64,000 nucleotides of DNA from assembly GCA_902729315.2 (NCBI GenBank), contig LR746266.1, forward strand, positions 67,001 to 131,000, given 5' to 3'. Shown here in pieces: positions 3,001 to 47,400 of the stretch; position 1 is the first letter of the stretch, and each line of letters starts with the position of its first letter. Below the pieces are notes generated by a model, which worked only from the letters and a program-made list of their open reading frames with translations, made no database searches and was not told where the DNA came from. The stretch comes from Spirodela intermedia. Lineage: Eukaryota > Streptophyta > Magnoliopsida > Alismatales > Araceae. A program made the translations under genes and the position numbers.

Positions 3001-6000
3001 AAAACTTTTTTCCATTCTATCTATCCAGTACTCTGGGAAAATAAAAGAACCAGCGGCAGATTGTTGGAGGTACACTGACAAGGTTGAGAAAGACAATAGA
3101 GGCCTTTCTTCAAGTAACGGAGAGATGTCTAAGACGTACATTAATTCATCAGAAGCACATTTCTAGTACCATACATTATCAAGGGGAAGAGAAGAGAACA
3201 TAAAAGCATCATCAAAGAAGATCCACTCTGCTTATCATGTACACCTTTGTGAGAGCATAAAAAGAACACCAAGATAACGGAATCAAGCAAAGTGGGACGC
3301 AAATGGAATAAAACAAATAAAGTATAATAAGATTTTTGAAAAATTAACTAAAACTTGGCAGAAAAATCAACATCATTCTATTGACTTTTTATGAGTCTCT
3401 AGATAGAACTTAAGGCAAATAAAATACATTTGACTATAAAATATAGAATACTTACAGACACACAGAAAGAGCTCTTCTCATGTCTCCTGATGCTGCAGCA
3501 ACTTTCTGAAATATGTTACTTGTGGTCAGAAAATGTATTATTTGTTGATATTTGTACAAGAGAACATGTGTAACATCGGTTGGTCGTGCCTGAACAACAT
3601 GGTACTCGTTTAACCCTATTTTAATAACATGGTACTAGACCAACAATACTCAAATATTTCCGCCAAATCCCCACAAACAAAGAGTATTGTAGAAGAATAC
3701 AACAAGCTACTTTTAGCTGAAAAAGGTGGAACATAACTAAATGTGGATTGACCCATCCTCGACATGTTGCATTTAACCTTCACAGCAATTCACTAATTCT
3801 AAAATAATAGTCCCCTGTACAAAGAAGTTGAGACTGAAAATAACAGACAAGACACAATGGCAACAAACTTTATCGATGCTTCTTTGGAACAGAAACACAG
3901 CTACTGTTCAGTAGATATATTAAACAGATAGTATATAAAAGATGGTAGATAAAGTCTTGACTCACTCTTGCACAGAACTCAAGCGCTAGAGGCTCAAACA
4001 CGTCATACCCAATAGCCTATTGACAAAAAAAAAAAAAAACAGTAATCGTCGAGTTTCGTAATTTGATTAAAAATTAGTAAAATTAAAACCCCCAATTAAA
4101 TAGTCAAGAAAACTACAGCTACATACCATGATCCTGTGCTGAAGAATTTTAAGTATCTGATCTTTGTTGTAAGCACGAAATGTTACAACCATGGGCTTGC
4201 CTAGCACCACAAGACACGAGAACCACCATATACAAGTCAGCTACAGATCTAAATTAATGAAACAGGGTCGAAGAATCAACATATTTATCGTAGACTTGCG
4301 ATCCAGCTTGAGAAGGGAACCATCAAAACTATTAAGTCCTTTCATGAACATTAACGATCTGGATATAAAATGTGAAAACAGTGAGATGGAAGAGTAACTA
4401 ACAATTCAATGATTCGAGCTTAGGGAGAAACCGATCAGCCAGATCTATCGCATTCGCTATTCCTGTAGACGTGAAAAAAACCAAAGATTTCAGTTTATGC
4501 ACCATCTGCTTTACGGTCTACTGGTGAGTGTTTGGATATTTAAATACTTGCGTGATTGGTCTCACTAATGGAGTTTCAGATTTTTATACTCGTTACCTAT
4601 TAGAATGAACCGTGAGAATGGATAAGTTGTGAGCATGAAGAGATCGTGAAGAACAGCACGGTCCTTGGTGATTAAGTAATCCAACTCATCCATAATAACC
4701 AGCCTGACAGAAATTACTTCAAATATTATGCAAGCATACAATTTAATATGAATACAGAGGTATACATTACCTATATGTGAACAGTATATGTATCTTTCTA
4801 AAAAGAATAATAGAATTCTAGCTTTGCGTACACTGCTCTTTCGCAGATTGGTTCTTTCCTCTGTGAAAATGAGTCCCTGAGATGCTGTAGGGGTGAAGAG
4901 GCGCCATTCACCTTTTTTAAATGGCATTTCTCTAGAATCTGCAATAAAATGTAAAAAGTGTTCAATTATCTGATGCAGGATCTCTCAACATTGTTAGAAC
5001 TAAAACATGGGAAACTACCTTGAGGAAAATTTCAGAGGTCGTTGTCAGTGAATTACAGCTTATACTCAGTGTGACTGGAAACTGAAACCCCACCTGAGAA
5101 TAAATCCAAGAGCATCTTGATTTAAAATTCAATGATACGGCAACAAAACGCAAAAAAGTGTCGATCAGGAATGTCAACACGAGGACGATCGGTAGTTCAA
5201 TTTCGTGTCGGCCATCTGAAGGAAATGTTAAGAACTAATTTGCAGTCGGTATCAAAATGCCCGCCACTTCCTGATTAATATGACCATGAGAGCTTACTAT
5301 GTACGAACAGGTCAGGAAAACGTTGATGCACCCGTGAAACAATGCTGTACGGCGAACAAAAAAAAGTGAACAAATTGGGGAGGGGATCCGAACTTTTTCA
5401 TAAACTCGTTTCAGTATGTTTTATCGTCTGTGTTATTTCGTTATCCTTGTTTGTAACATATACTAGAGAAGCCCCCAGATTCAGATGAAGATATCACGAT
5501 TGAACGTTGACAAAACAAAGAAAACAGCTGAAAAATAGTAACTGTATGGGCAAAAAATATATTGTGCGCCTAAAATATTTTTTATTTTAGAATGCATATG
5601 ATTATCGTTATCAATGTTTTTGGCTAGGTGCCTTGAGCTATTTCAAGATATAACCTCTTCTTGTTTCCTTCATACTGCGAATAAGACCCTCACATATCTC
5701 CGTCAGAAATCTCTATATCGGATCGATATCAATGCCATATATTCGATCCGAATTCAGTTAAAACAAGTAGTGCATGTAATTTGACTCTCCTGACGTTCGC
5801 TCCTCCGGAGAAGACGCTTCGTGCAACGAGGGCACGCGTGTAAGGGACAAAATCTAGCCACACTGCCAAAAGTACTACTAGTAAGGAAAAAGATTGCAGG
5901 CGATGAAAAAAGAGAGAATACGGCTTGCCTCCTTCGTCCATGCCCCCAAGAGCTCCTTCACTCTTTCCATTGACAACGTCTTCCCCGTCCCGGGGCATCC

Positions 6001-6709
6001 ACAGACGTACAGGCTCCCACCTGTTTCCTGTTCTATACAGGTCTTACAGAATTCGAAAATCCGCATCTGCTCGGAGTCGCGGCACACGATTGTTGCGGGG
6101 GGCGAGGACACGTGGAAAGCCTCCTTAACCGCGTTCATTTGCCCCGGATCTGCAAGATGTATCATACGCTGAGGAATCGCTCCGAGCTAGAGCAGTTACT
6201 GAAATGAACAGAAAGGCGACAAACACACGAAGCTGACTGGTTATTCCGCCGATGACTCTAAGAGAATTGAACCAACCTCTAGGATTCCATCTGTTCTTCT
6301 GAGATAAGCCGGCGAACAGCCGCTTCATTGGAGATTTAGGGGAACAACAAGTGACGACGGCATTGGTCGTCTTAATGACTCCCTGCCAGAGGCGTTAGAC
6401 TCGTTAGACTGGGAGGAACGGTAATGATTCCGATTAAAACAAAATGGAGGCGAACTAGCAGCAACGAGACTCGTCACGAACATTGGCATCGGTCTCACTA
6501 GCAGCGCGTCGTAAATGAGGCGCCCACTTCTCTGGGGAAACGGGGCTGGCGGGGCTCGCCGGAGCCGGCTCATCGGACCTCCGCCGCTTGCCGCTGGGCA
6601 TGGGCGTGGCATTTAGTCGACGCTTCGTCTCTTCCGAATTGAAGAAGTCTCCCACCGGTTCCGCGACGGCAGCTTTCCTCCCTTGTCTGTTCGCAGGGCT
6701 CTTCGCCAT
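1..6709 (-). CDS. CDC6: CDC6 replication-licensing ATPase (3' end beyond the window)
   Basis: CDC6 is the AAA+ ATPase that works with ORC to load MCM helicase at origins. Exons, all joined in frame: 6709-6478, 6378-6277, 6149-5929, 5093-5019, 4938-4832, 4703-4597, 4462-4403, 4200-4127, 4016-3966, 3505-3456, 2768-2705, 2130-2041, 464-405, 74-<1. They give about 455 codons; roughly 50 C-terminal residues are missing. Walker A GCPGTGKT lies near residue 162, Walker B LVIMDELDYL near 247, sensor 1 LIGIAN near 280, and sensor 2 GDMRRAL near 350, followed by winged-helix sequence (LNKSYLEVCRSAQV). The N-terminus carries an SPKSP pair of CDK-type sites just before KRLFAGL and WNPRDPGQM. The start is the only ATG opening the first exon frame. 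The exon 1/2 junction is the least certain. Intron 3 uses a GC donor (GAG|GCAAGC), the only choice I found that keeps frame. Identity is very secure. Confidence 0.93.
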
Positions 6710-6805
6710 TCCTCCTTGGTGGAGCTCGTCCTGATTGTGTGTAGAGGGACGAGCGGGCGAGACAGATCGGGGCAGGGGAAGGGGGAGGAGGACGGAGCAG
6801 TTCTG

Positions 6806-6844
6806 GGCGGGAAACGGGAAGGCGGGAAGCGGGGATTTTCCCGC
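6806..6844. promoter_or_regulatory. Paired E2F-type sites upstream of CDC6
   Basis: GGCGGGAAA at 6806-6814 and TTTTCCCGC at 6836-6844 match the E2F consensus (TTTSSCGC in either orientation). They lie about 100-135 bp upstream of the CDC6 ATG at 6709, with a weaker GGCGGGAAG between them. CDC6 is a classical E2F target in plants and animals, so S-phase control is a reasonable inference. The match and spacing are seen directly; function is not shown. Confidence 0.6.
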
Positions 6845-7138
6845 TCAGCCGTGAGGAAAACAGGGGATACATTGGTATACGTACGGTACACGTGAGGGCA
6901 AGGCAGTCTTTTCCTTCTGCGTTACCTCCCGGGGGGGGGGGGGTTGCGCTCCAATCATTTGAAGCCCGCCAGCTTTGGAAGCCCGTGGTCTACTCCTGGG
7001 AATTGATCTGTGATCTCAGCTGGACCTCACTCGACGTAAGAGTAGTAGTCTTCTCGCTGCAAGCGCCCCGGCAGAGTCGGCGCGAAGAACGATTGAAACG
7101 GGCGGCCAGGGGGAAGGGAGGGGACGTAGAGGCCTTTT

Positions 7139-7171
7139 GATGGATGGATGGATGCATAGATGGATAGATGG
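7139..7171. repeat. (GATG)n-like microsatellite
   Basis: Imperfect tetranucleotide array of GATG/GATA units read directly from the sequence. Confidence 0.8.
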
Positions 7172-9454
7172 TTAGATTAAAACCGACGGGATCCTTAATT
7201 CTTCCCGAGGCCGACGTCCCACCGTCGAAGGGCAGGCTAGATTCAAGGGGAAAGCGGGCCGCGCAGTACGCAGTCTGCCGTACGCTGCTAGCAGCGAGCC
7301 CAGGCCGAGAGATTGCTCGGGTGGACTGCGTATATCCGTCCGTCTTTGCAGACTGCCGTTGGCCCGAGCATCGCTCGATAGGCAGCCCTAAATAATAGCC
7401 GCCCGGGAGAAACGAGGTGCCCTTTTCCCCCTGCTCCCGAAAAGCCGAGGGCAGCTCATTAATGATTGCCTGTTGGGCGCGTTGCGATCCAGAGAGGGAA
7501 CGCTGGAGATTTGACGGCCCCTCCAAATTCGATCGCCGTGGCCGAGACGAACAATGGCCTTTCCGGATGGCACGCCCTGGAGGAGGCCAGCCCACCCGGT
7601 GGCCGACCGAGGGAGAGGATCCAAGTGGCCCTTGGGAGATCTCCCCGCCTCCTGCGTACAGCGCCCTTGTCGCCCTTTACCGAGTACCCGTGTCGGAGGC
7701 GGGTTCCACCAGAGACGCTGGGGAGATGATGCCCCGGGGAACGAAGGCGAAAGGTACGAAGCACATGGCGCAACAGCGTTTCCGGATCGCTGAGACTGCA
7801 AAAGGACCTCATTCCTGTGGTCGTACGTGGATCGCCGGTGGGGGAGGCGAAAGCGACCGCACCTCCGTGGAGAATGCCGTAGGCTTGTCATTCCCCGTCC
7901 GGAGCAGGCAGTGAACGGGGACTGTTGCGGGTCGAGAAGACGACGTGTATAATGCCGTCCCTCCTGCAGCTAGGGCACGAAGACGATGACAGTTCCGAGG
8001 GGTGGAACGCTTCGGAGGAGGATTTTGCGCCGTCGTCCTGACGGTGGAAACGCAGGGAGGGGCGGCGGACGATATCACTGGATCAGCTGAGAAGCACCCA
8101 CCCTTGAGTTTCCTGGAAAGAATCCCGCCCCAAGTATTCATTCTTCTTCGCTGACGAGCGAGCGAGAGAGAGAGGGAGAGCCCGTCCTCGTCGTCGCCTA
8201 ACAGCGCCAGGTACTGTGACGACGGCCCCTGTGCAGGGACAAACACGCTTGCAAGGCAAACCATCGCCCATGTGTCGGAGCTTCGACGGGACCGACAACG
8301 GCGCCTTTCCAGCCGATCCCAACGGATGGAATCCGTCCTTATGGAGTTCAGGACGGCATGCCCACTCACTCCATGTGTATTTGCTCTTCAAGGGCTGGAA
8401 GAACCCAAAGAAGTGGTCGCTGTTAGGGCTCGCCGCGCGTTTGAGCGATCCCTCCCGTGTAGCCCCCCAACGGGGAAGCGACTAGAGACGAGTTTGGTTT
8501 TTGGGTTGGGATCCCCTCCCTCTCCATTAAGGCCCCCCCGTGGTGAAGATTGAGGATGGGACAGGCCGCCACTGTTTCCCGAGCCCGACGAGAACAAGGA
8601 TGACAGGATTAAGACGGCGTTTGCAGAAACAGTTCCAGGGGGGCCGCCGGAGGACGTCCGGCATCTCCTTCAGTGAGAGAGATAAAGGGAATGAGTGAGG
8701 GGAGGCATCCGCGTCCCTTCATCACCCTGCTCTGGCCCGCCCCTCGTGGTTTTCCAAGAGAGGCTGCTTCCGTGCAGCATGGCATGTGCGCAGCCCGCCG
8801 ATGACTCGCGCCGGTTTAATGGCCCTTGGATTCACGTCTATGGCGTTTCTAAGGATGCGGAGCAGCAAGGATCGAAGAGGCGCTCATCTTGTCTCAATCA
8901 TCCATCCGTACTGGTGAGCCAGCTGCAGGAATCGGCTGTGACTGCCGGAGCGTCGACGGCTGCCGTTTAAGGACGGCGTCATGCGCGCGCGTCGAGGCGG
9001 GGCGCGATCCCAAAGGCACGTGTCAAAATACATGACAGAAAAGCCAAAAAGGTTACCAGACCGGTGTTAGGCGTTTCTCCAAAAACCAACGGTCGCAAGG
9101 CTCCGTCACCTGCCCTGCCGAGAAGCCTCCAGTCGCAGCGGAAGAACCCGGAGCCAAGGGCTCTAATTCAGACACCTGTCATCCTGAACGCGGTGCGAGA
9201 CACGCGGAGGGCAGTTCCACTATGCCTCAACAGCCCACATGGGATCTCGGCCCTGTCAAAATACGTCTCCCGCTCCGCGGGCTTCCCAAAAAGCCGCCGT
9301 CGTCCGTTTGCCAGACAGATTTCAGAATCTCAACGCGGGTGCAAGGGAGAATCCCACGCTTGTTCTTGTGTGCGTTCCTGTTTTCTCGCGCCTGCTGTAA
9401 GAGCGCCAGCAGCTCATGACGGCGCCGTCAACGCTCCTCCGGCCCACACACCCA

Positions 9455-29560: not shown

Positions 29561-30133
29561 AGGAGGTGGAACGGCTGCAGTGGCAGGAGAAAGGAAAGAG
29601 AGGCCTGGCAACGGGAAGGAACGAAGACGACGTGGGGAAGAGAAAAGACGAAGGTACCCCTAATCCAAGAGGCGAGCGAAAGAGAGTATGAACCCATAAT
29701 CCAAGAGCCGAATGAGGGAGAAGGAACCCCTAATCCAAGAGGTGAGAAGATAACAAGAATCTTCTTGATTCCAAATTTAATTTCAACTTTTTTTTTCAGT
29801 ATTCTTGAGTTTGAGTATTTATAGGAAATAGAAGAAATTAGTTAGAAACATTCCCTCCCAAAGGATGCCAAGTGGTGTCTCTTGGAGGGAGAGACGCCTT
29901 CCTTAGGGGAGGAGTACATAGGTGACGTGGCCTCTTCTCCTCCATCTTCTTCCTCCGCCTCGTGGGTCCATCTAGGATAATGAACCCTCATGTTGACTCC
30001 ATGAGGGCATGTTGGGAGGAAACGGGGCACTTGATCTGTGCTATCTGGGTGGCCTTTTCATGCAGCAAGATCCGTGACTTTGTCTGCTGCGGATTGCAAC
30101 AGTACGCTCTCCCTTTCTTGTTCTAGATTGCTC

Positions 30134-30413: not shown

Positions 30414-30418
30414 GAACC
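30414..30418. repeat. Left target-site duplication GAACC
   Basis: GAACC abuts the left LTR terminus and is repeated exactly at 39465-39469 after the right terminus. Five bp is the usual length for Ty3/gypsy integration. Confidence 0.8.
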
Positions 30419-31440
30419 TGATGTGACTCAGTCATTGTATATTAAATCACGCAAATATAAAATTTATAAAACTAGAAAATATGAATTTTTAGATATTTAT
30501 AAGTATTTCTAAATAAATATATTAATTATAATTCAATAAAAATTCCAAAAATAGCAGTAATTTTCCAGGTCGATCACAAAGATGTAATAATATCTGGTAA
30601 TTATTTAGAATTTTTCTCAATGAATACGATTTTCTTATGAATTTTATACTAAGAAATAAAAAAGAAATATATTTAAAATTCACAAAAAAAAAGGAAATAA
30701 GGGTGCGGACATTATGATGATGTCAACACCCGGCAAATACGAATCAGGCGGAAATAAAGTTCCACCCGGCGATTCTTACGTAAGTGATTACAGATAACTT
30801 AATTAGTTAAATTAAGATCTATAAAAGTCGAAAGAATCGTAATTGAACGAAGTATAGTTTGGTAAATTAAAATCACACAAAGTATCACTAAATGAAGTGT
30901 AAATTAAATTGAAAGCAGGAAAATAGAGTTCCGGCGTCGTGACGGCGATGCGTCGGTGATGCACCGGAATCCTGAGCGTTCGAGAGGATCGTCGTGTAGT
31001 GTCCACGGCCTTGAAGGCTCTCCTTGGACAAAGATGACGTGGGCAATCTCTAGATCTTCTCGCGAAGTCTAGAGATCAATGAATTGGGTTGTCGAATCGT
31101 CTCCGGCGGCTGTCACCCGGCAGAGCGGAAAAACGGCAACTTTATGGCTCTCCGGCGGCTGTCACCCGATGGAGAGGAGCTGGATGGAGGTGGGGCGTGT
31201 GTCAGGGAGGTTCATCCTCAGGTCTGCGCAGTAAGAGGAGGCTCTTCATCGCATCTGGTACACTCTCAGGAGGTGGCGACTGGTCTCCCGACGGATCGCC
31301 CTCTTCCCGACGACGACTTATTCGTCAATCAATCGGAGATGATTTACTCGATAGATTCGCGATCCTTTTATCGTGAATCATTCAGCAATTTTAGTAGCAA
31401 TGCTTCACGAATCGCGTTGACGAGATTTTCGTTCAGCTAC
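30419..31440 (-). repeat. 3' half of an Athila-family LTR, minus orientation
   Basis: It matches the left 1.2 kb of the complete LTR at 45128-47070 (TGATGTGACT start; shared CTTACGTAAGTGATT, ATCACACAAAGTATCACTAAAT, and the GGAGGTGG...GTTCATCCTCA blocks), but many CpGs are retained. It stops abruptly at about 31440, just before gag-like sequence, without a primer-binding site. Confidence 0.8.
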
Positions 31441-31461
31441 TAACTTTTTCCCTCGAATTTA

Positions 31462-32390
31462 TTGATTTTTATGCATGATAGAAGATCTTTGCATCCAAGG
31501 CTAGAAAATCCTTTCATTATTTCATTCAAAAATAAAAATCTGAAAGAAAAGTTAATTTTGATAGATCCTAAAGGAAGTACAAGTCAAACTGAGAACAATC
31601 CTATGACCATGAAAAATTATTATATCCCTGATTCATTTCAAAGAGCATCTAATATTAGAGTCCCATTAGCACCCACTATTAAATTCGAAATAAATCCAAA
31701 AAAATTTCAAATGCTCCTTAATTTTCATAGATTACCTTTAGAGGAACCTCATCAGCACTTAGAAAATTTTCATATGGTCTGTGATTTAGTTAATCTCCCT
31801 CAAGTTACACCGGAAATTATTAAGATGAAATTATTCCCTCATACACTTAGAGACAAAGCTAATCATTGGCTATCCACATTAGATAGAGAATTAACTAGCT
31901 AGAAAGATATAGAACCGGCCTTCCTTTGAAAATTTTATCCTTTAAGAAAAACTCAATATATGAGAAAACATATATAGAGTTTTTCTCAAAGACTAGGAGA
32001 AACTTTGCATGAGACATGAGAAAAATTCAAAGATTTACTTAGAAAGTGTCCTCATATACCCAAGTGGCAGCTCAATAGAATTTTTTATGATGGATTATTA
32101 GAACAATATAGAAATATGGTTGATTATATATGTGGAGGTGCTTTTATGGAGAAAACTCCTGATAAGATTTACAGTTTTTATGAGAATTTAAGTGAAAATT
32201 CTAGAGATTAAGCCTCTTTTGAATTATATGACAAGGATAAGAAGAGAGGAATTTATGAATTGTATCATGATGATGATTCTAAACTTAGAAATGAGGTTAA
32301 TCAGATTAATCAAAGATTAGAAAAACTTGATTTACTTATTGACAATATTAAAAAGCCTTTTAACCCTCAACTTAATTCGAATAGTACGTC
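31462..32390 (+). pseudogene. Athila/Tat-like gag (broken)
   Basis: Gag of the element. Readable blocks include INPKKFQMLLNFHRLPLEEP, QHLENFHMVCDLVNLPQ, KLFPHTLRDKANHWLSTLD and, after an in-frame TAG where tryptophan is expected, the segment with LRKCPHIPKWQLNRIFYDGL. These follow the Ty3/gypsy retrotransposon gag domain order. Several TAG/TGA/TAA stops interrupt it, and a frame change near 32400 separates it from the downstream pol frame. Confidence 0.8.
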
Positions 32391-32639
32391 TTATGTATGG
32401 TAAAAATTATTATTTTGAATTTCAATGTTATAATTTAGATCAATCATTTCACCCTATACAAAAATAAGTGCAAGTAGCTCATGGTTTTAATAGAAATAGG
32501 GAACATATTTTAAATTCTTATAATCCTAATTGGAGGAATAATTTTTCATGAAGAGACCCAAATAATATTCAAAATCTAGAAGCACTTAGACCCAATTCAA
32601 ACTCTGAATTTTGTCCAAAATAAAAAAATAGATTTCAGA

Positions 32640-33990
32640 AAAATCAGCCCTCTCAAACCCAACCTGATGCTATAGAAATGATGCAACAAATGAGCCAAAT
32701 GATGCAACAAACTATGAATCAAATGATGCAGCACCAGAAATAAATTATAGAGGCCCTTGGAAATAAGAGAGAAGAGGGACAACTACCTAGTCAGCCTATA
32801 GAAAATCCAGGGAACCGCCCAACAATAGGATTTCAGCATGGGGAGTCTAGTAGCACGAATCTAGGAAAAAACCCACGAAATGAAAATGTTAGGACAGTGA
32901 ATGTATTAAGGAGTGGTAAGATCTTACATGATCCTTATCCCCAAACATTAGAAGAAAAAGAAAACGTGGACAACCCAAAACAAAATCAAATAGGAGTAGA
33001 AGAGGATTTTATAGATTCTACCAAAGAAATTTTGAAAAAGAGGACAACCATTCCATTTCCTAAAGCTCTAGGGCCTAGATAAAGAAAGAAAAAGGAACAC
33101 AATGAAGAAATAAAGAAAATTTTACAAGATATACAAATTAGCCTTCCTTTACTCACTGCCATTGAACATATTCCTAAATATGCTAAAGTTTTGAAAGAAA
33201 TGTGTACACCAAAAAGGGCACCTAGAGTAGAAAAATTATCTATGCATGCTAGTGCATTATTATTAAAACAATTACCATTTAAATTGAGAGATACAGGTGC
33301 CTCTTTAATTTCGTGTGATATTGGTGAATTCATTTTTCAAAATGCATTACTTGACACCGGTGCTAGTATTAATTTATTACATGCAAGTATTTGCGATAAA
33401 TTTAATATTTCTGATCTTAAACCTTCTACTATTACCTTACAATTTGCTGATAGATCCATAAAACATCTTAAATGAATTTTAGAAAATGTGATAGTGACAG
33501 TTAAAGGGTGTAAATTTCCAGCTGATTTTGTAGTACTGGAAATGAATTTTAATGGACAGTTTTATGATACACCAATCATCCTAGGGAGACCATTTTTGCA
33601 TACAGCAAATATGAATATTAATTTTCCCACAGGTATTGCGAAAATTTCATGTGGAGATCAATTAGTAGAAATTAAAATTTTTGAGGTATCAAATGATCTT
33701 AAGAAATCCCAAGTATATGATTGTTATACTATAGATCTTCTAGATGATTTTGATGATCCAGATATTATTGATGACTGTGTGTTGGAAGAATTAGAGGAAA
33801 TAGAGAATATAAATTTAGAAGAAAAGAAAGAGGAAGATCATCTGAATTTAGAGTTGAAACCTCTTCCTTCTAGTTTAAAATATATGTTTTTAGAGGAAAA
33901 TAATTCATTTTATGTTATTATTGCAGCTGATTTGAGTAATAAACAGGAAGAAGAATTATTAGATGTACTTCAAAAAAATAAGAAGGCTAT
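32640..33990 (+). pseudogene. Gag-pol linker and aspartic protease (broken)
   Basis: A Met/Gln-rich segment (MMQQMSQMMQQTMNQMMQ) is followed by VLRSGKILHDPYPQ, a basic linker and a retropepsin-like domain. Its catalytic motif is LLDTGASINLL at about 33347-33380, with the flap/ILGRPFLHTA block near 33570. The order and motifs are typical of Athila/Tat elements. Three stops (near 32740, 33080 and 33473) interrupt it. Confidence 0.8.
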
Positions 33991-34000
33991 GGGCTGAAAA

Positions 34001-35380
34001 ATGGATGATCTAAAAGGCATTGATATGAGAGTATGCATGCATAGTATATATTTAGAGGAGGGGGCTAGAACTAGCAGGGAACCACAACGAAGATTAAATC
34101 CTAACATGATGGAAATTGTAAAAAAAGAAATTTTAAAGTGGCTAGCTGCTGATATTATTTACCCTATTTCAAATAGCAAATGGGTTAGTCTTACACAAGT
34201 AGTGCCAAAAAAATCAGGGATCACGGTTATAAAAAATAAAAATAGGGATGAAATACAAACAAGACTAACTACCGGTTGGAGAGTTTGCATTGATTATAGA
34301 AAATTAAATTCAGTTACTAGAAAATATCATTTTCCCCTACCATTTACTCATCAAATTCTAGAAAAATTAGCTGGAAAAAACTTTTTTTGTTTTCTAGATA
34401 GATACTCTAGTTATAATCAAATTTATATAAACCCTTTAGATTAAGAAAAAACAACTTTCACTTGTCCATTTGGTACTTTTGCTTTTAAATGTATGCCTTT
34501 TAATCTGTGTAATGTTCGAGCCACATTTCAAAGATGTATGTTGTCTATTTTTTCTGATATGATTAGAAAATGCATGGAAATTTTTATGGATGATTTTTTT
34601 GTTTTTGGTGAATCATTTGATGAATGCTTAAATCATTTACAGCATGTATTTAAGAAATGCATAGAGAAAAAATTAGTTTTGAGTTGGGAGAAATCACATT
34701 TTATGGTTAAAGAGGGAGTTGTGTTGGGTCATATTGTGAGTGAAAAGGTTTAGAGGTGGATAGAGCAAAAATTGATATTATATCTAAAATGAAACCTCTG
34801 AATTCAGTAAAATAGATTAGATCTTTCTTGGGTCATGCAGGTTATTACAGAAAATTTATTCAAGATTTTTCGAAAATTTCTAAACCTCTCACCATGCTAT
34901 TATCTAAAGATGTGCCTTTTAATTTTAATGAGAAATATTTTGAGTCTTTTTCCGAAATAAAAAGATTACTTACTGAGGCACCTATTTTACAAGCTCCTGA
35001 TTAGTCTCTTCCCTTTGAAATAATGTGTGATGCATCGAATTATGTAGTGGGGGCCGTTCTAGGACAAACAAAAGAGTCAAAACCCATAGTAATTTCATTA
35101 GTTAGTAAAACTATATCCGATGCTCAATTAAATTATACCACGACTGAAAAAGAGTTATTAGCTGTAGTATTTTCGTTAGAAAGGTTTAGATCATATATTT
35201 TGGGAGCTAAAATTATTATTTATACTGATCATACAGTATTAAAATATCTGTTAAATAAGAAAGATGCAAAGCCACGTTTATTAAGATGGATTTTATTGTT
35301 GTAGGAATTTGACTTAGAAATAAAAGATAAAAAAGGTTTTGAGAATATTGTTGCTGACCATCTTTCTAGATTAAGTGATA
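34001..35380 (+). pseudogene. Reverse transcriptase and RNase H (broken)
   Basis: RT blocks: WVSLTQVVPKKSG, GWRVCIDYRKLNSVTRKYHF, FFCFLDRYSSYNQI, FGTFAFKCMPFNLCNVRATF and FMDDFFVFGESFDECLNHL; the catalytic YxDD appears as FMDDF. A one-base loss in the G run at about 34747 shifts the frame after GHIVSEK. RNase H follows in the new frame ([58 protein letters not shown]). Stops at 34442, about 34814, 35003 and 35303 are further damage. Confidence 0.85.
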
Positions 35381-35559
35381 TAGGAATAAATGCAGCACCT
35401 TTACAAGACGCATTTCTAGATGAACAATTGATGGCAGCTCAACATCAACCATCACCATGGTATGCACATATTGTTAATTTTCTGGTTTCTGGAAAAACTC
35501 TAGAACAGTGGGATAAGAACAGAAAAAATCATTTCTTTTCTAAGATTAAAAATTATTTT

Positions 35560-36747
35560 TGACATGATCCTGATTTATATTACTTGGGCAATGATCAAAT
35601 TTTAAGGAGATGTGTTCTTGAAGAAGAATATCATAGCATTATTAACATGTGCCATTCATCTAACTGTGGAGGACATTTCTCTGGACAAAAAACAACTGCA
35701 AAAATTTTTTAGTGTGGTTTTTATTGGCCTACAATCATTAGAGATTCTATAGAATTTAGTAGAATATGTATTTCATGCCAATCTATAGGTAATATGAGTA
35801 AAAAAGATGAAATGCCTATGAGTAACATGTTAGTAGTCGAAATTTTTGATGTATAGGGAATAGATTTCATGGGTCCCTTCCCATCAGCTGAAAAATATGA
35901 ATATATTTTGCTTGCTGTTGATTATGTGTCGAAGTGGGTGGAAGCTATTCCTACTAGAACTAATGATCATAAAATCGTGATGAAATTTGTGTAGGAAAAT
36001 ATTTTTTCGAGATTTCGATGTCTTAGAGTGATTATTAGTGATGGAGGAACACATTTTACAAATAAACATTTCAAGGAATTGTTGAAAAAGAATGAAGTAC
36101 ACCACAAAGTAGCCACTCTATATCATCCCTAAACAAATGGGCAAGTTGAAGTAGCAAATAGGGAAATTCAGAGAATTTTGAGAAAAATAATTAGACCAAA
36201 TAGGAAAGATTGGCCCACGAAATTACAAGATGCATTATGGGCTTATAGAATAACTTATAAAAATCCCATAGGTATGTCCCCATTTCGTCTCATTTTTGGA
36301 AAGCCATGTCATCTTCTTGTGGAAATAGAGCATAAAGTATTATGGGCTATAAAAAATTTATGTATGGATGAGAAATCAGCTGGTGGGCATAGAATTTTTC
36401 AACTACATGAATTAGAGGAGTTGAGGAATGAAGCTTATGAAAATCATAGAATATATAAAGAAAAAACTAAAACTTTCCATGATAAATACATTAGCAAAAG
36501 AAAAATTGATGTTGGACAAAAAGTGTGGTTATATGATTCTAGGCTGAAATTATTCCCAGGAAAATTAAAATCAAAATGGAAAGGGCCTTATGTGGTGGAA
36601 GAGACATATGATCATGGGGCTGTAATGATTAAAGATCTTAAAAGTGATCATAACTTTAAGATAAATGGACAGTGGCTTAAACATTACATAGAACATGAAT
36701 GCCTTGCAGAAAAAGAAATTTTATTATTAAAAGAAATTCAAGAGTAA
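35560..36747 (+). pseudogene. Integrase (broken)
   Basis: An HHCC-like zinc region lies at about 35640-35790 (CHSSNCGGHFSGQKT ... ICISCQS). The DDE core follows: GIDFMGPFPSAEKYEYILLA, DYVSKWVEAIPT, VIISDGGTHFTNKHFKELL and the TNGQVEVANREIQ block. The C-terminal part (RKDWPTKLQDALWAYRITYK, SPFRLIFGKPCHLLVEIEHK, GPYVVEETYDHGAV) is open to 36747. Stops at about 35710, 35856, 35993 and 36130 (CATCCCTAA, expected CAA) inactivate it. Confidence 0.85.
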
Positions 36748-38251
36748 GACCAAGGAGTTCAACTGGAGATATTAAATTCAACACTGCATGAGAGGCAACC
36801 CATGGTTTTTATTTCATTCTGTTTGATTTTTTTTAAGCTCTATTTTTCTTAGAATTTTGCAGTACTTGTTTCTGTATTTGTTTTTTTTTTGAAAAAATGC
36901 AAGAGGAGGAGTGTAAGATGAAGTGGAAAATTAAAAATGAGGTTGAGGTGATGTCTTTCTGAGCTTCATCATTTATGAAAATATTTTTAATGCTTAACTT
37001 TTTAGATATGCATACTTCACTTGAAAATTATATTTTCTACATATTTTATTTCGAGTTTTCTGTGTCATTGAGGACAATGCCATTTTTAAGTTGGGAGGTG
37101 AAGTATTCATTATTAATTTATGCTATAAAACGATTAAGACCATGTGTTTGCATTTTATTCAACTTAGAACAGCAACTAAAAAAATAAAAATAAAATAAAA
37201 TTCGGAAAAATTGTAACATCTATTTTCTGGCTTTCTGTTAGAAACAACAGACTGTCAAAAACAGCAGACAAAAAATAGCTCGAAATTTGAAATCACAGAA
37301 GACCTTTTTCTCACATTTCAATCCGCTAGATATATATTACTGAAATTCAAAATTACAACAATAAAAAAGATAGTTTTGATTTATTTTTGACAAATTTATT
37401 GCTGCTAAAAATAGAACTAAAAAAAGAAAACAGAATTGTCAGAACTATCTAATTTACAAATTCCTTACATCATATTACATGCATGAAAAATTAAATCAAT
37501 TAGATTGATTGATACCAAAAGATACTAGGAAGATTATTATTGAGTCAAAAGAATGATCTAGTAACATAAAATGTTGGAATACTCCTTGGATACATGATAG
37601 ATAACATAGATTTGATTTTACAGATTTTCACTTCATGATCTTGATGGATAGTATTTACTTGATGTGAAAATTTGATTAATCGTTTGAGTTTAACGGAGAT
37701 TTTTACACCTTGATCTATAAGACTTGTGAGGAGAAATCACTTATTTCGAAAAAAGAAAAAGAAAAAAGAGAGAGCAATGTGAAAAATCTAGAAATGAAGA
37801 GTACACATGGAGGGTGTGAGACATCATTCTTATTGTCGAAATTTATTTATAGGAAAAGTTACTTATCCACTATTTAAAAAAAAAAAAAGAGGAAGAAATA
37901 TAGTGCAAACTTCAAAAATCAAGTCATAGAAAAAGGGAAATGTAAGATCAATATTATTCTTGGATGAGTATTGATAATTAGAACATCTTGTAAATACATC
38001 TATGAGTGAAGAAGTGATAAAGATGTGAATAGAAGAAGTGAAGTCTAGATTGTTATTCCAATGAGTGTTTAAACATTTAAGTGCTTGGCATCATTCTTAA
38101 ATACTTGATATAAGAATCCAAAGTGTTTAACGATGCATCATTTTTAATTATATATCTTTTTCTATATTGAAATATGATATTTGAGATTTGTAAAATTTTA
38201 TTTTCGTAATTTCATTGCTAAGGGACTAGCAATGATTTAAGTTGGGGGGTG
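36748..38251 (+). other. Non-coding tail of the element and polypurine tract
   Basis: About 1.5 kb of AT-rich sequence with no envelope-like frame. It ends in GTTGGGGGGTG at 38241-38251, a polypurine tract positioned directly before the TGATAAGTC start of the LTR, as required for plus-strand priming. Confidence 0.65.
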
Positions 38252-38844
38252 TGATAAGTCTTCATTATCATGAGTTAATAATTAGTAAATAATATAGTTT
38301 TAGCCTTAACTCATGATAAATAGACTTATATTTATGTTAAAGAATAATTTTTAGTTTTTAATTGATTAACATGATTTTTTTGGGTAATTATGTGATTTTA
38401 TATGATTTTTATAATCTTACTTTTGAGATAAATGAAGAACAAGAAATAAAAATAAAAATATTGCAAAAATGGGGGGACCCATCGGCTAACTGGGCCCGCA
38501 AGCGGGTCGGAAGCACAGTCGGGGAGTAAGCCGCGAGTAGGGGCTCGAGCAGCTTGGCTTGGGGACCGATAGGGCACACGTACGCCACTCCCCTTCCACG
38601 TCACCGGTGGCTAGCCGGCTGTGGGGCAAGGAGTGGTCGTACACGCGAGAGAAGGGATTTTGCTTACAAAGCTAACATTACTATATATTCACCCGAACAA
38701 TCGGCATACAACCGATGTGGGACTAAACCCCCGTCACACCTTCCTCAGAAGAGGCGGGCGACCGGCGCGGGTTTAAATCCTTTCAGAGTCAAAATTCATA
38801 TATTTTTATCTGATTATCGTGACTTTCCTGTAGATCACCGGTGA
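38252..38844 (+). repeat. LTR 5' half, left arm of a large palindrome
   Basis: It starts TGATAAGTCTTCATTATCATG after the polypurine tract and runs to CACCGGTGA. It is an inverted match to 38871-39464 with scattered substitutions, and 26 bp separate the arms. It is rich in CpG compared with the sister copies at 19.1 and 45.1 kb. Confidence 0.88.
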
Positions 38845-38870
38845 AAGATTAAGCAACGAGAATTGCTGGA

Positions 38871-39464
38871 TCATCGATGATTTGTAGGAAAGTCGCGATA
38901 ATTAGATAAAAATATATGAATTTTGACTTTGGAAGGATTCAAACCCGCACCGGTTGCCTGCCTCTTCTGAGGAAGGTGTGATGGGGGTTTAGTCCCACAT
39001 TGGTTGTACGCCGATTTTTCAAGCGAATATATAGTAATGTTAGCTTTGTAAGCAAAGTCCCTTCTCTCGCGTGTACGACCACTCCTTGCCCCATAGCCGA
39101 CTAGCCACCGGTGACGTGGAAGGGGAGTGGCATACGTGTGCCTTGTCGGTCCCTAAGCCAAGCCACTCGATCCCCTGCTCGCAGCTTACTCCCCGACTGT
39201 GCTTCCGACCCACTTGCAGGCCCGACTGGCCGGTGGGTCCCCCCCATTTTTGCAATATTTTTATTTTTATTTCTTGTTCTTTATTTATCTCAAAAGTACG
39301 ACTGTAAAAATCATATAAAATCACATAATTACCCAAAAAATTCACGTTAATTAATTGTAAACTAAAAATCATTCTTTAACACAAATATAAGTCTATTTAT
39401 CATGAGTTAAGGCTAAAACTATATTATTTACTAATTATTAACTCATGATAATGAAGACTTATCA
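38871..39464 (-). repeat. LTR 5' half, right arm of a large palindrome
   Basis: Reverse-complement partner of 38252-38844. Its outer end, GACTTATCA at 39464, is the LTR terminus abutting the GAACC target-site duplication. Confidence 0.88.
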
Positions 39465-39469
39465 GAACC
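39465..39469. repeat. Right target-site duplication GAACC
   Basis: Exact partner of the repeat at 30414-30418. Confidence 0.8.
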
Positions 39470-44499: not shown

Positions 44500-47400
44500 A
44501 TAAAAGTGTACATCATCCCAAACAAAAATGACGACCACGTCTACTACTGAAAATGGGTGCTTCAAAAGAGAGAAATAAATGTACTCGCTTAGTTAACCCC
44601 AATAATCATTGTAGCTACCTCATATTTGTTAGTGGGAGCTAATTTTACACATCTTGAACTTTGTCGTGGGCGGTCGCCACCCTACTAGTTGATATCCAAT
44701 GTCTCAAATATTTCAACTACCCCTAATAAGAAGAGTACTTTTTGAAGTTGACTGTCAATTGATGATTCCAAAAGAGTGTTAATATGATTCAAAGATGAGT
44801 CTCATGATTGGCCTCTGATTGTCTAAAAACTAGGATATCATCAAAGATTGCCATTATAGAATGTCGTAGGTATGACCAAAAAATGAGGTTTATTAGGGCT
44901 AAAATGTAAAAGGTACAAGTCAACCCAAATGACATCATCATGTACTTGTAGTAGCCCTTGAGTATTCAAAACATACTTTTTTAGATGTACACTTTGTACA
45001 TGTGAAATTGGTGATACTCAAACTTGAGGTTCAACTTGGAGAAGAGAGTGGGATTATAAAGTTCTTTTAGTAGCTCATCAATGATCAGAATGAGAAAATA
45101 GTTTGAGACAATGAGCTTATTGAGGCATGATGTGACTTAGTCATTTAATAATAATACACATAAATTAAAATTTTATAAAACTAAAAAATACTATTTTTTT
45201 AGATATTTAAAAGTATTTTGAAAAAATATATCAATTATAATTCAATAAAAGTTCTAAAAATAGTAGAAAATGTTTAAGTCGATCATAGGAATGTAATATA
45301 ATATCATATAATATTTCAAAAAAAAAATCAAATAATGAGATTTTTATAAATTTTAAACTAAAAAATAAAAATAAATTATATTTAAATTTTAAAAAAAGAA
45401 GAAAAATAAGAGTGTAGACATCAAGATGATGTTTGTATTTGATGAACATAAATCGAACGAAAATAGAGTTTCACCTAACAATCCTTACGTAAGTGATTCC
45501 GTAAAATTTAATTGATCAAATTAATATCTATAAAAGTTAGAAGAATTGTAATTGCACGAAAAATAGTTTAGAAATTTAACATCACACAAAGTATCACTAA
45601 ATAAAATAAAAATTAAGTTAAAAATAGAAAAAGCAAAGTTTTGGTCTTGCGACAATAATCATTGAAATTTTGCGTGTTCAAGAATATTATTGAACAATGT
45701 TCAAGGTCTCAAAAGCTTTCTTTAGACATAGACGAGTTGAGCATTTATTAGATCTCCTTTCAAAGTTCAAAAAATGATGGTCGAAATTAATGTAGAAATT
45801 AAACTAGTAAAATAATAATAAAATAGAGTTTTGGCGTCACAGAAGAGATGTGCCAACGATGCAACAAAATCTTAAAGTTCGAGAGAATTATCATACAACA
45901 TCTATGGCCTCAAAGGCTCTTTCTTTAGAGAAAGTCAATGTGACCATTCTTTAGATCTTCTTTCAAAGCCTAAAAATCAATGAAGTAGGTCATCGAATTA
46001 TCTTCGATGATTGTCACCAACAAAATAGAAAAATAGCAACTTTATAACTCTTCGACGGTTGTCACCTAGCGAAGATCAGTTTGATGGAGGTGGGATGTGT
46101 GTTAGGGAGTTTCATCCTCAAGTTCACACAACAAAAATATATTTTCATCGCATCTAATAAGCTCTTAGGAGGTGACAACTCATCTCTTGGTGGATTCATC
46201 ATCTTCTCGATGATGGCTTATTTGTTGATCAATCATAGATGATTTACTTAATAGATTCACAATCTTTTTATAGTGAATTATTCAATAATTTTAATAATGA
46301 TGCTCTATGAAACGTGTTGATGAGATTTTCATTGATGATGAATCAATTCTGACAACTTAATCCTTCATCGATAATCTATAAAAAAAATATGATTTAATTA
46401 GATAAAAATAAAAATTTTGGCTTTAGTAGGATTTGAACATTCACGTCACCCACCTACATAAGAGAGTGAAATAAGTATACAAATACTTTTATAAAGTGGT
46501 ATCATCAGGGTACCTTCTTCTAATAAATAAGAGGTATCTTTAGGTATAAAAATTATTAAAATATTTTGAAAAAAGTATGACTAGGGTTTAGTCCCACATT
46601 GATTATATGTCGAATTTAAAGATGAATATATAATAATACAAGATTTAAGAATCAATGAATCTCTTTCTCGTGTGTGTATGACCACTCCTTGTCTCATGCC
46701 TGACTGACCACCAATGACATACAAAGATAGTGACATTCACGTGCTCCTTATCAGTTCATCATTGACCATTCATTCTCCTACTCACAACTCTACTTAATAG
46801 TGCTTCTGACTCGCTTGTGGGCCAAGTTGGTCGGTAGGTTCCTTATTTTTTTCTATCTTTTTATTTTTTTAATTTTTCTTTATTTATCTAAAAAATAAGA
46901 TTATAAAAATTATATAAACTCATATAAAATCAAATAATTAATTAAAAATTACATTAACAAATTAAAAACTATTTTTCACAATTTAACATAAATATAAGTA
47001 TATTTATCATGAGTTAAAGCTAAAAATGTATTATTTATTAATTATTAACTCATATATTGAAAACTTATCAAAGCCACAATAATCAATGCATAAAAGTCAG
47101 AGTCATTTTTCTTCTTCACTATGAGGGTTGGGCTAGTGAAGTGGCTGTATAAGGGTCAAATAATCCATTACACCAATTACTCCACCACAAGTTACTCCAA
47201 GACATCCTTCTTGAGATGCAAATATTGATATGGCCACTAGTTCACTGTGTTGAACTTAGTCACAAGATGATGGCATGGTCAAGGGGCTTGGGTGGTGAAA
47301 AGACAAACTTATTGGAGAAAACCCCAAGGAAGTCATATTATAAGGTCATGACGGCCACTTCATGTGCCTTATTTGCCAACACTGACCTATAGTAGAGATC

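Follow-up and report, generated by a model that had tools for sequence, protein, structure and literature searches.

Long terminal repeat (LTR) retrotransposons of plants are degraded by illegitimate recombination, which leaves non-homologous joints and removes LTR and leader sequences. Its usual products are deletions, in which the order of the remaining parts is unchanged. In proviruses of human immunodeficiency virus 1 (HIV-1), internal inversions arise in reverse transcription. Such inversions are a defect screened for in HIV-1 proviruses, according to an excerpt of one report (PMC8809251). The window analysed here, a stretch of 64,000 nucleotides from Spirodela intermedia (positions 67001-131000 of contig LR746266.1, designated C3), contains at 30419-39464 a retrotransposon that is a variant of a known retroelement rearrangement. 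Like the inverted proviruses (PMC8809251, excerpt), it is an integrated unit whose interior is partly reversed, but it is a plant element, its breakpoints lie within the LTRs, and it is millions of years old as judged by LTR divergence. With the plant elements that undergo illegitimate recombination it shares non-homologous joints and lost LTR and leader sequence, and it differs from them by its flipped interior. The locus is probably a single minus-strand, Athila-like insertion, the inside of which was flipped by a break followed by end joining, with about 1.2 kb lost at one end.

Related copies of the element, referred to by L-numbers, were fetched as loci from the same genome (136,496,439 bases searched, 32 contigs). 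Two of them, L005 and L033, were used for numbering the LTR. The parts of the window copy are the following:

30414-30418, no strand: target-site duplication GAACC, left copy, an exact match to the right copy
30419-31431, minus strand: 3' part of an LTR, reversed, forming the left stub (LTR base ~627 in L005 numbering, or 620 in L033 numbering, to the LTR end)
31432-31433, no strand: junction A, from the LTR stub to interior base 182 (leader), with 0-2 unmatched bases and no clear microhomology
31434-38251, plus strand: interior with broken gag-pol and 3' non-coding region, in an orientation opposed to the outer LTR ends
34445-34753, plus strand: reverse transcriptase piece (Pfam RVT_1, E 2.6e-13)
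35005-35304, plus strand: RNase H piece (Pfam RT_RNaseH, E 1.6e-32)
38237-38251, plus strand: polypurine tract, adjoining the LTR start
38252-38876, plus strand: 5' part of an LTR, flipped with the interior (LTR bases 1 to ~625 in L005 numbering, or 618 in L033 numbering)
38871-38880, no strand: junction B, a 10-base overlap, TCATCGATGA
38877-39464, minus strand: right LTR, 5' part, reversed (from ~base 593 in L005 numbering, or 586 in L033 numbering, down to base 1)
39465-39469, no strand: target-site duplication GAACC, right copy, an exact match to the left copy

The element begins at 30419 with TGATGTGACT and ends at 39464 with CTTATCA. Both outer ends are in minus orientation, the LTR 3' end standing on the left and the LTR 5' end on the right. 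At fixed flanks and at the given base composition, five matching bases such as GAACC have a chance of about 0.001. The gag-pol remnants and the polypurine tract lie on the plus strand, and a plus LTR start follows the tract directly at 38252. A first-pass annotation of the window had already described the exact duplication at 30414 and 39465, the minus LTR termini, the plus-strand interior and the plus LTR start, and all of these observations hold. Its proposal of one insertion with a flipped inside, which lost an LTR part, the primer-binding site and the leader, is likewise indicated by comparison with normal copies, which place the loss near 31434. Relative to these, the interior of the window copy lacks the primer-binding site and the first 181 bp of the leader, and the best match inside the element to the 18-base site of the relatives has six mismatches. 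The polypurine tract is kept, whereas the primer site, which follows the LTR in all seven relatives inspected, is absent. Normal relatives carry their LTRs in direct orientation, whereas in the window copy one LTR is split and flipped.

The element looks like an old and dead member of an Athila-like Ty3/gypsy family. RVT_1 and RT_RNaseH, models that we take to be markers of gypsy rather than copia elements, match above the cut-off in separate pieces. Among the eight window pieces compared with Pfam, four had no match at all and two had sub-cut-off matches only; an earlier search (E 0.001) left five pieces unmatched. The pieces that we presume to be gag and integrase are among those without a match. 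The gag-pol frame is fragmented in the window copy and is a long open frame in the one relative inspected. Likeness to Athila-type elements extends to the LTR of about 1.6 kb (1630-1641 bp as bounded in the six measured), its ends TGATAAG...TCACGTCA in the relatives, the primer site TGGCGCCGTTGCCGGGGA that adjoins it there, the reverse transcriptase and RNase H pieces, the long 3' non-coding region and the polypurine tract. The window copy departs from this type in having no recognisable primer-binding site and an interior that runs opposite to its outer LTR ends. The name of the lineage is our own assignment from presumed Athila features (a tRNA-Asp-type primer site and an LTR of ~1.5-1.9 kb) rather than from a database match; LTR length and primer-site letters agree with these features. 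Target-site duplications of 5 bp are exact in 8 of 13 other copies at the boundaries used. Two more (L025 and L035) match once the right boundary shifts by one base, and in L004 four of the five bases are alike. The unmatched flanks of L002 and L006 are explained by the tested LTR not being a whole insertion.

The breakpoints were derived from same-family copies elsewhere in the genome. They replaced the LTR at 45128-47070, the reference suggested in the first-pass annotation, which belongs to a related but different family (70-75% identical) and has the unmatched flanks AGGCA and AAGCC. In normal LTRs, the homologue of 38252-38876 continues into that of 31431-30419 after one to three intervening bases (six of six loci, L002-L007), an adjacency also visible in the letters of seven LTRs. 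The segments 30419-31431 and 38252-38876 represent neighbouring parts of a single LTR that was cut near its base 626 in L005 numbering. By the numbering of L033, base 620 is where the left stub begins, and the plus half and the right stub stop at 618 and 586, respectively; thus, the left LTR was cut without clear loss, and the right LTR lost everything past about base 586. Missing at the other end of the flipped stretch are 1046 LTR bases and 181 bases of primer site and leader, about 1.2 kb together; in L033, 181 bp of leader precede the base that matches 31434. At junction A, LTR letters match up to 31431 and interior letters from 31434 onwards. The two parental forms of the overlap at junction B, TCATCGGCGA and TCACCGGTGA, both present in L005 and in L033, are alike at 8 of 10 bases and lie 26 bases apart in the LTR. 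One or both of these forms differ in the four other LTRs compared at this point. The sequence patterns across junction A and junction B each occur once in the genome (up to three mismatches), so there is no sign that the flipped form spread. When the flanks were used to search for the empty site (40 candidates scored per search), the whole of either flank was covered only by the window itself. Other matches were partial on the right and, in the left flank, due to a ~150-bp repeat (29853-30002), which is present at 39 or more other places with 79-88% identity.

All parts appear to derive from a single insertion, and a break-and-join mechanism probably rearranged them. One cut would have fallen inside the left LTR, near base 626 (L005 numbering), and the other inside the right LTR, after which the stretch between the cuts would have been excised and rejoined in reverse by end joining. 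The left cut would have been clean, with both of its sides surviving as 30419-31431 and 38252-38876, and the flipped stretch would have lost at its other end the remainder of the right LTR, the primer-binding site and the leader. One of the resulting joints would have formed at a 10-base imperfect match and the other without a clear match. The flip could have happened either before integration, in the complementary DNA (cDNA), or later, in the chromosome. Break and end joining is preferred because it explains the clean cut and the one-sided loss with the fewest steps. What weighs against it is that the three LTR break points lie within ~34-36 bases; three uniform points would fall within 35 bases with a probability of about 0.001. 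The clean cut accounts for two of the clustered points, while the third calls for a shared weak spot or some other cause. A quasi-palindrome at the break is no proof, as a single LTR contains 120 such repeats. Together with the joint of a second flipped copy, which lies at landmarks of reverse transcription, the cluster leaves room for an origin at the cDNA stage.

This second flipped copy is located on contig C1 (C1:5023336-5030780; L002/L046/L048) and has GTCCT on both sides. The right flank supplied the prediction of GTCCT, and the left end, read later, has GTCCT before TGACGTGACT. In L002, AAAATT and then a complete reversed LTR come after the polypurine tract. These six bases are the reverse complement of those adjoining the LTR end before the primer site plus one primer-site base, so the joint runs from the end of the polypurine tract to a point within a single base of the primer boundary. 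With up to three mismatches allowed, the pattern of this joint has a single occurrence in the genome; ordinary joints of polypurine tract and LTR number 347 (up to two mismatches), a figure that may include related families. On the left side of the copy, the reversed LTR extends to about base 683 and is followed by 41 bases of filler with repeats of nearby LTR letters, which looks templated, and then by the 3' part of an LTR on the plus strand (from base ~1136), the leader and the interior. Because this 3' part is additional, the copy amounts to more than a simple inversion. Its continuity across C1:5023401-5024099 and C1:5025301-5028656 is deduced from spacing. Its structure hints at an origin at the cDNA stage.

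Template switching in reverse transcription, which would yield a flipped cDNA that then integrates normally, is an unlikely but not negligible source of the window copy. The growing strand would have left the LTR near base 590 at the quasi-palindrome, copied an opposite-sense template from base ~629 via the polypurine tract and gag-pol as far as leader base 182, and finally returned to the LTR near base 627. Such a path accounts for the clustering of all three break points and is in keeping with the 8-of-10 match at junction B and with the C1 copy, whose junction joins two reverse-transcription landmarks, one of them within a base. However, junction A offers no match to guide the return to the LTR, no known landmark coincides with either window junction, and the close fit of the left LTR halves is expected from a single clean cut and less so from two switches. 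The first-pass annotation had named template switching as a cause, and it stands as a candidate rather than as a demonstrated one.

Break and end joining places all parts in one insertion. It is improbable, instead, that a minus solo LTR (30419-31431 plus 38881-39464) broke near LTR bases 590-627 and captured a 7.4-kb plus-strand fragment of another family member. The outer stubs do make up a nearly whole LTR, about 33 bases short (1632-620 and 586-1 in L033 numbering), and neither half is the most similar row of the other. Yet the end of the fragment would coincide by chance with the LTR base where the stub begins, a second source element would be required, and the two 5' halves come out as sisters in the trees built here and are both unusually old. 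The opposed LTR halves are 90% identical. Between the 5' halves there are 48 differences over 583 aligned bases (43 transitions and 5 transversions), and their distance of 0.089 corresponds to 3.4 or 6.4 million years at substitution rates of 1.3e-8 or 7e-9 per site and year. They group as sisters in a 46-row LTR tree (support 85) and in a 48-row tree (support 90/89, stem 0.014). Their end branches measure 0.042 and 0.052, compared with 0.019-0.028 in the nine other rows of their 11-row group. The left stub is also old: its two pieces have end branches of 0.060 and 0.065, as against 0.008-0.042 and 0.025-0.047 in L002-L007 and L033. A second, other LTR in L004 has an end branch of 0.142. The two halves share 11 non-majority states, the highest number among the 36 pairs tallied (next 7).

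From these comparisons, an origin of both opposed halves in one insertion is favoured, with several observations weighing on the other side. Sisterhood is weaker in a 14-row tree (61.7/71). In 100 simulations without sisterhood, the halves were nevertheless joined in 21; 13 of the 100 reached at least the observed value of the Shimodaira-Hasegawa-like approximate likelihood ratio test (SH-aLRT), and one had a stem at least as long. Ten of the 11 shared changes are transitions, which are prone to recurrence, and the two halves are the most changed rows, with 36 and 50 non-majority states. Each half finds a closer match in some other copy (93-94%) than in its partner (90%), which can be due to their age, and the left stub is nearest to rows of another subgroup, not to L002-L007. 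LTR parts with target-site duplications of their own, which the first-pass annotation had given as the mark of separate insertions, were not seen, although the tree alone allows a separate origin.

A false join of the assembly at 31432 or 38876 is very improbable: opposed 90% arms may confuse short reads, but the joins unite non-homologous positions, a matching 5-bp duplication brackets the entire element, the arms are distinguished by 48 differences over 583 aligned bases, another flipped copy in the genome has a duplication of its own, and the likely source assembly was built from Nanopore and Illumina reads, as an excerpt of its description states (PMC7645714).

Homologous recombination between opposed LTRs, the other cause put forward in the first-pass annotation, is not supported. 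The LTRs of one insertion stand in direct orientation, and neither junction pairs homologous LTR positions in homologous orientation. Autointegration is rejected for the window copy, as neither inner junction has an LTR terminus, and so is self-primed snap-back copying of the LTR alone, which would not extend the plus arm beyond the polypurine tract and into pol. The truncation of an LTR near window 30989, considered as an RNA end, is a nested insertion, because the interrupted LTR resumes beyond the element in L032.

Further rearranged loci were found among 26 (L020-L039 and L002-L007) that were mapped against a normal LTR and interior, one weak 64% match in L032 being dropped. Strand changes involving interior sequence within 80 bases are present in L002, L020 and L029; this count leaves out LTR-to-LTR strand changes in L003, L004, L007, L028, L034 and L038, several of which resemble nested insertions, and it gives no unbiased rate, because the loci were the best matches of two queries. 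The scrambled locus L029 (C4:5476-15475, bases 4580-7688) has ~100 bp of reversed LTR end, the polypurine tract with ~55 bp of LTR start on the plus strand, a flipped pol piece and then reversed gag. In L020 (C9:4721652-4731651, base ~590), a plus LTR broken at about base 1020 meets a reversed interior that falls ~10 bases short of the end of the polypurine tract, and the LTR on the right side is mostly 75-81% alike. Elsewhere, the 5' ends of interiors adjoin an LTR in normal orientation in 34 of the 34 listed, a count that includes at least one pair of segmental duplicates, one locus (L018/L029) that is scrambled further in, and L020, joined only to a diverged, truncated LTR, and that a flip of the C1 type would escape. 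The presence of a second copy with a similar oddity in the genome points to a recurring kind of damage rather than to a new system.

The family also varies in other respects. A shorter, likely non-autonomous subgroup (L022-L027, L030-L033 and L035-L038) lacks the equivalent of window 32957-36757 and has ~1 kb of other sequence instead. Many LTRs of the fetched regions, not including the window copy, carry a 144-bp tandem duplication (homologue of window 30912-31055). The homologue of window 37776-37857 matches in one piece only in the window and in two older copies, C9:10299590 and C4:697611, among 40 scored places; the other 37 have an ~82-bp local duplication wherever both pieces are listed.

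Annotation programs that search for LTRs in direct orientation would report a flipped copy as a damaged element plus separate LTR fragments. The paper on REANNOTATE, in the excerpt available, leaves the detection of inversions involving repeats to future work (PMC2672092). Among the titles and abstracts listed by an exact-word literature search, none describes a flipped plant LTR element bounded by target-site duplications. It is conceivable, though doubtful, that this family repeatedly makes flipped insertions before integration, through joining or switching of cDNA ends, and that inverted copies bounded by target-site duplications are a regular but overlooked product of plant retrotransposition. 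In that case, the C1 copy would be its clearest record and the window copy a second, older one. If the flips arise in cDNA, they would be a record of reverse-transcription errors in plants; if they arise in the chromosome, they would record break repair confined within one element. With two cases bounded by target-site duplications in one small genome, their frequency becomes measurable.

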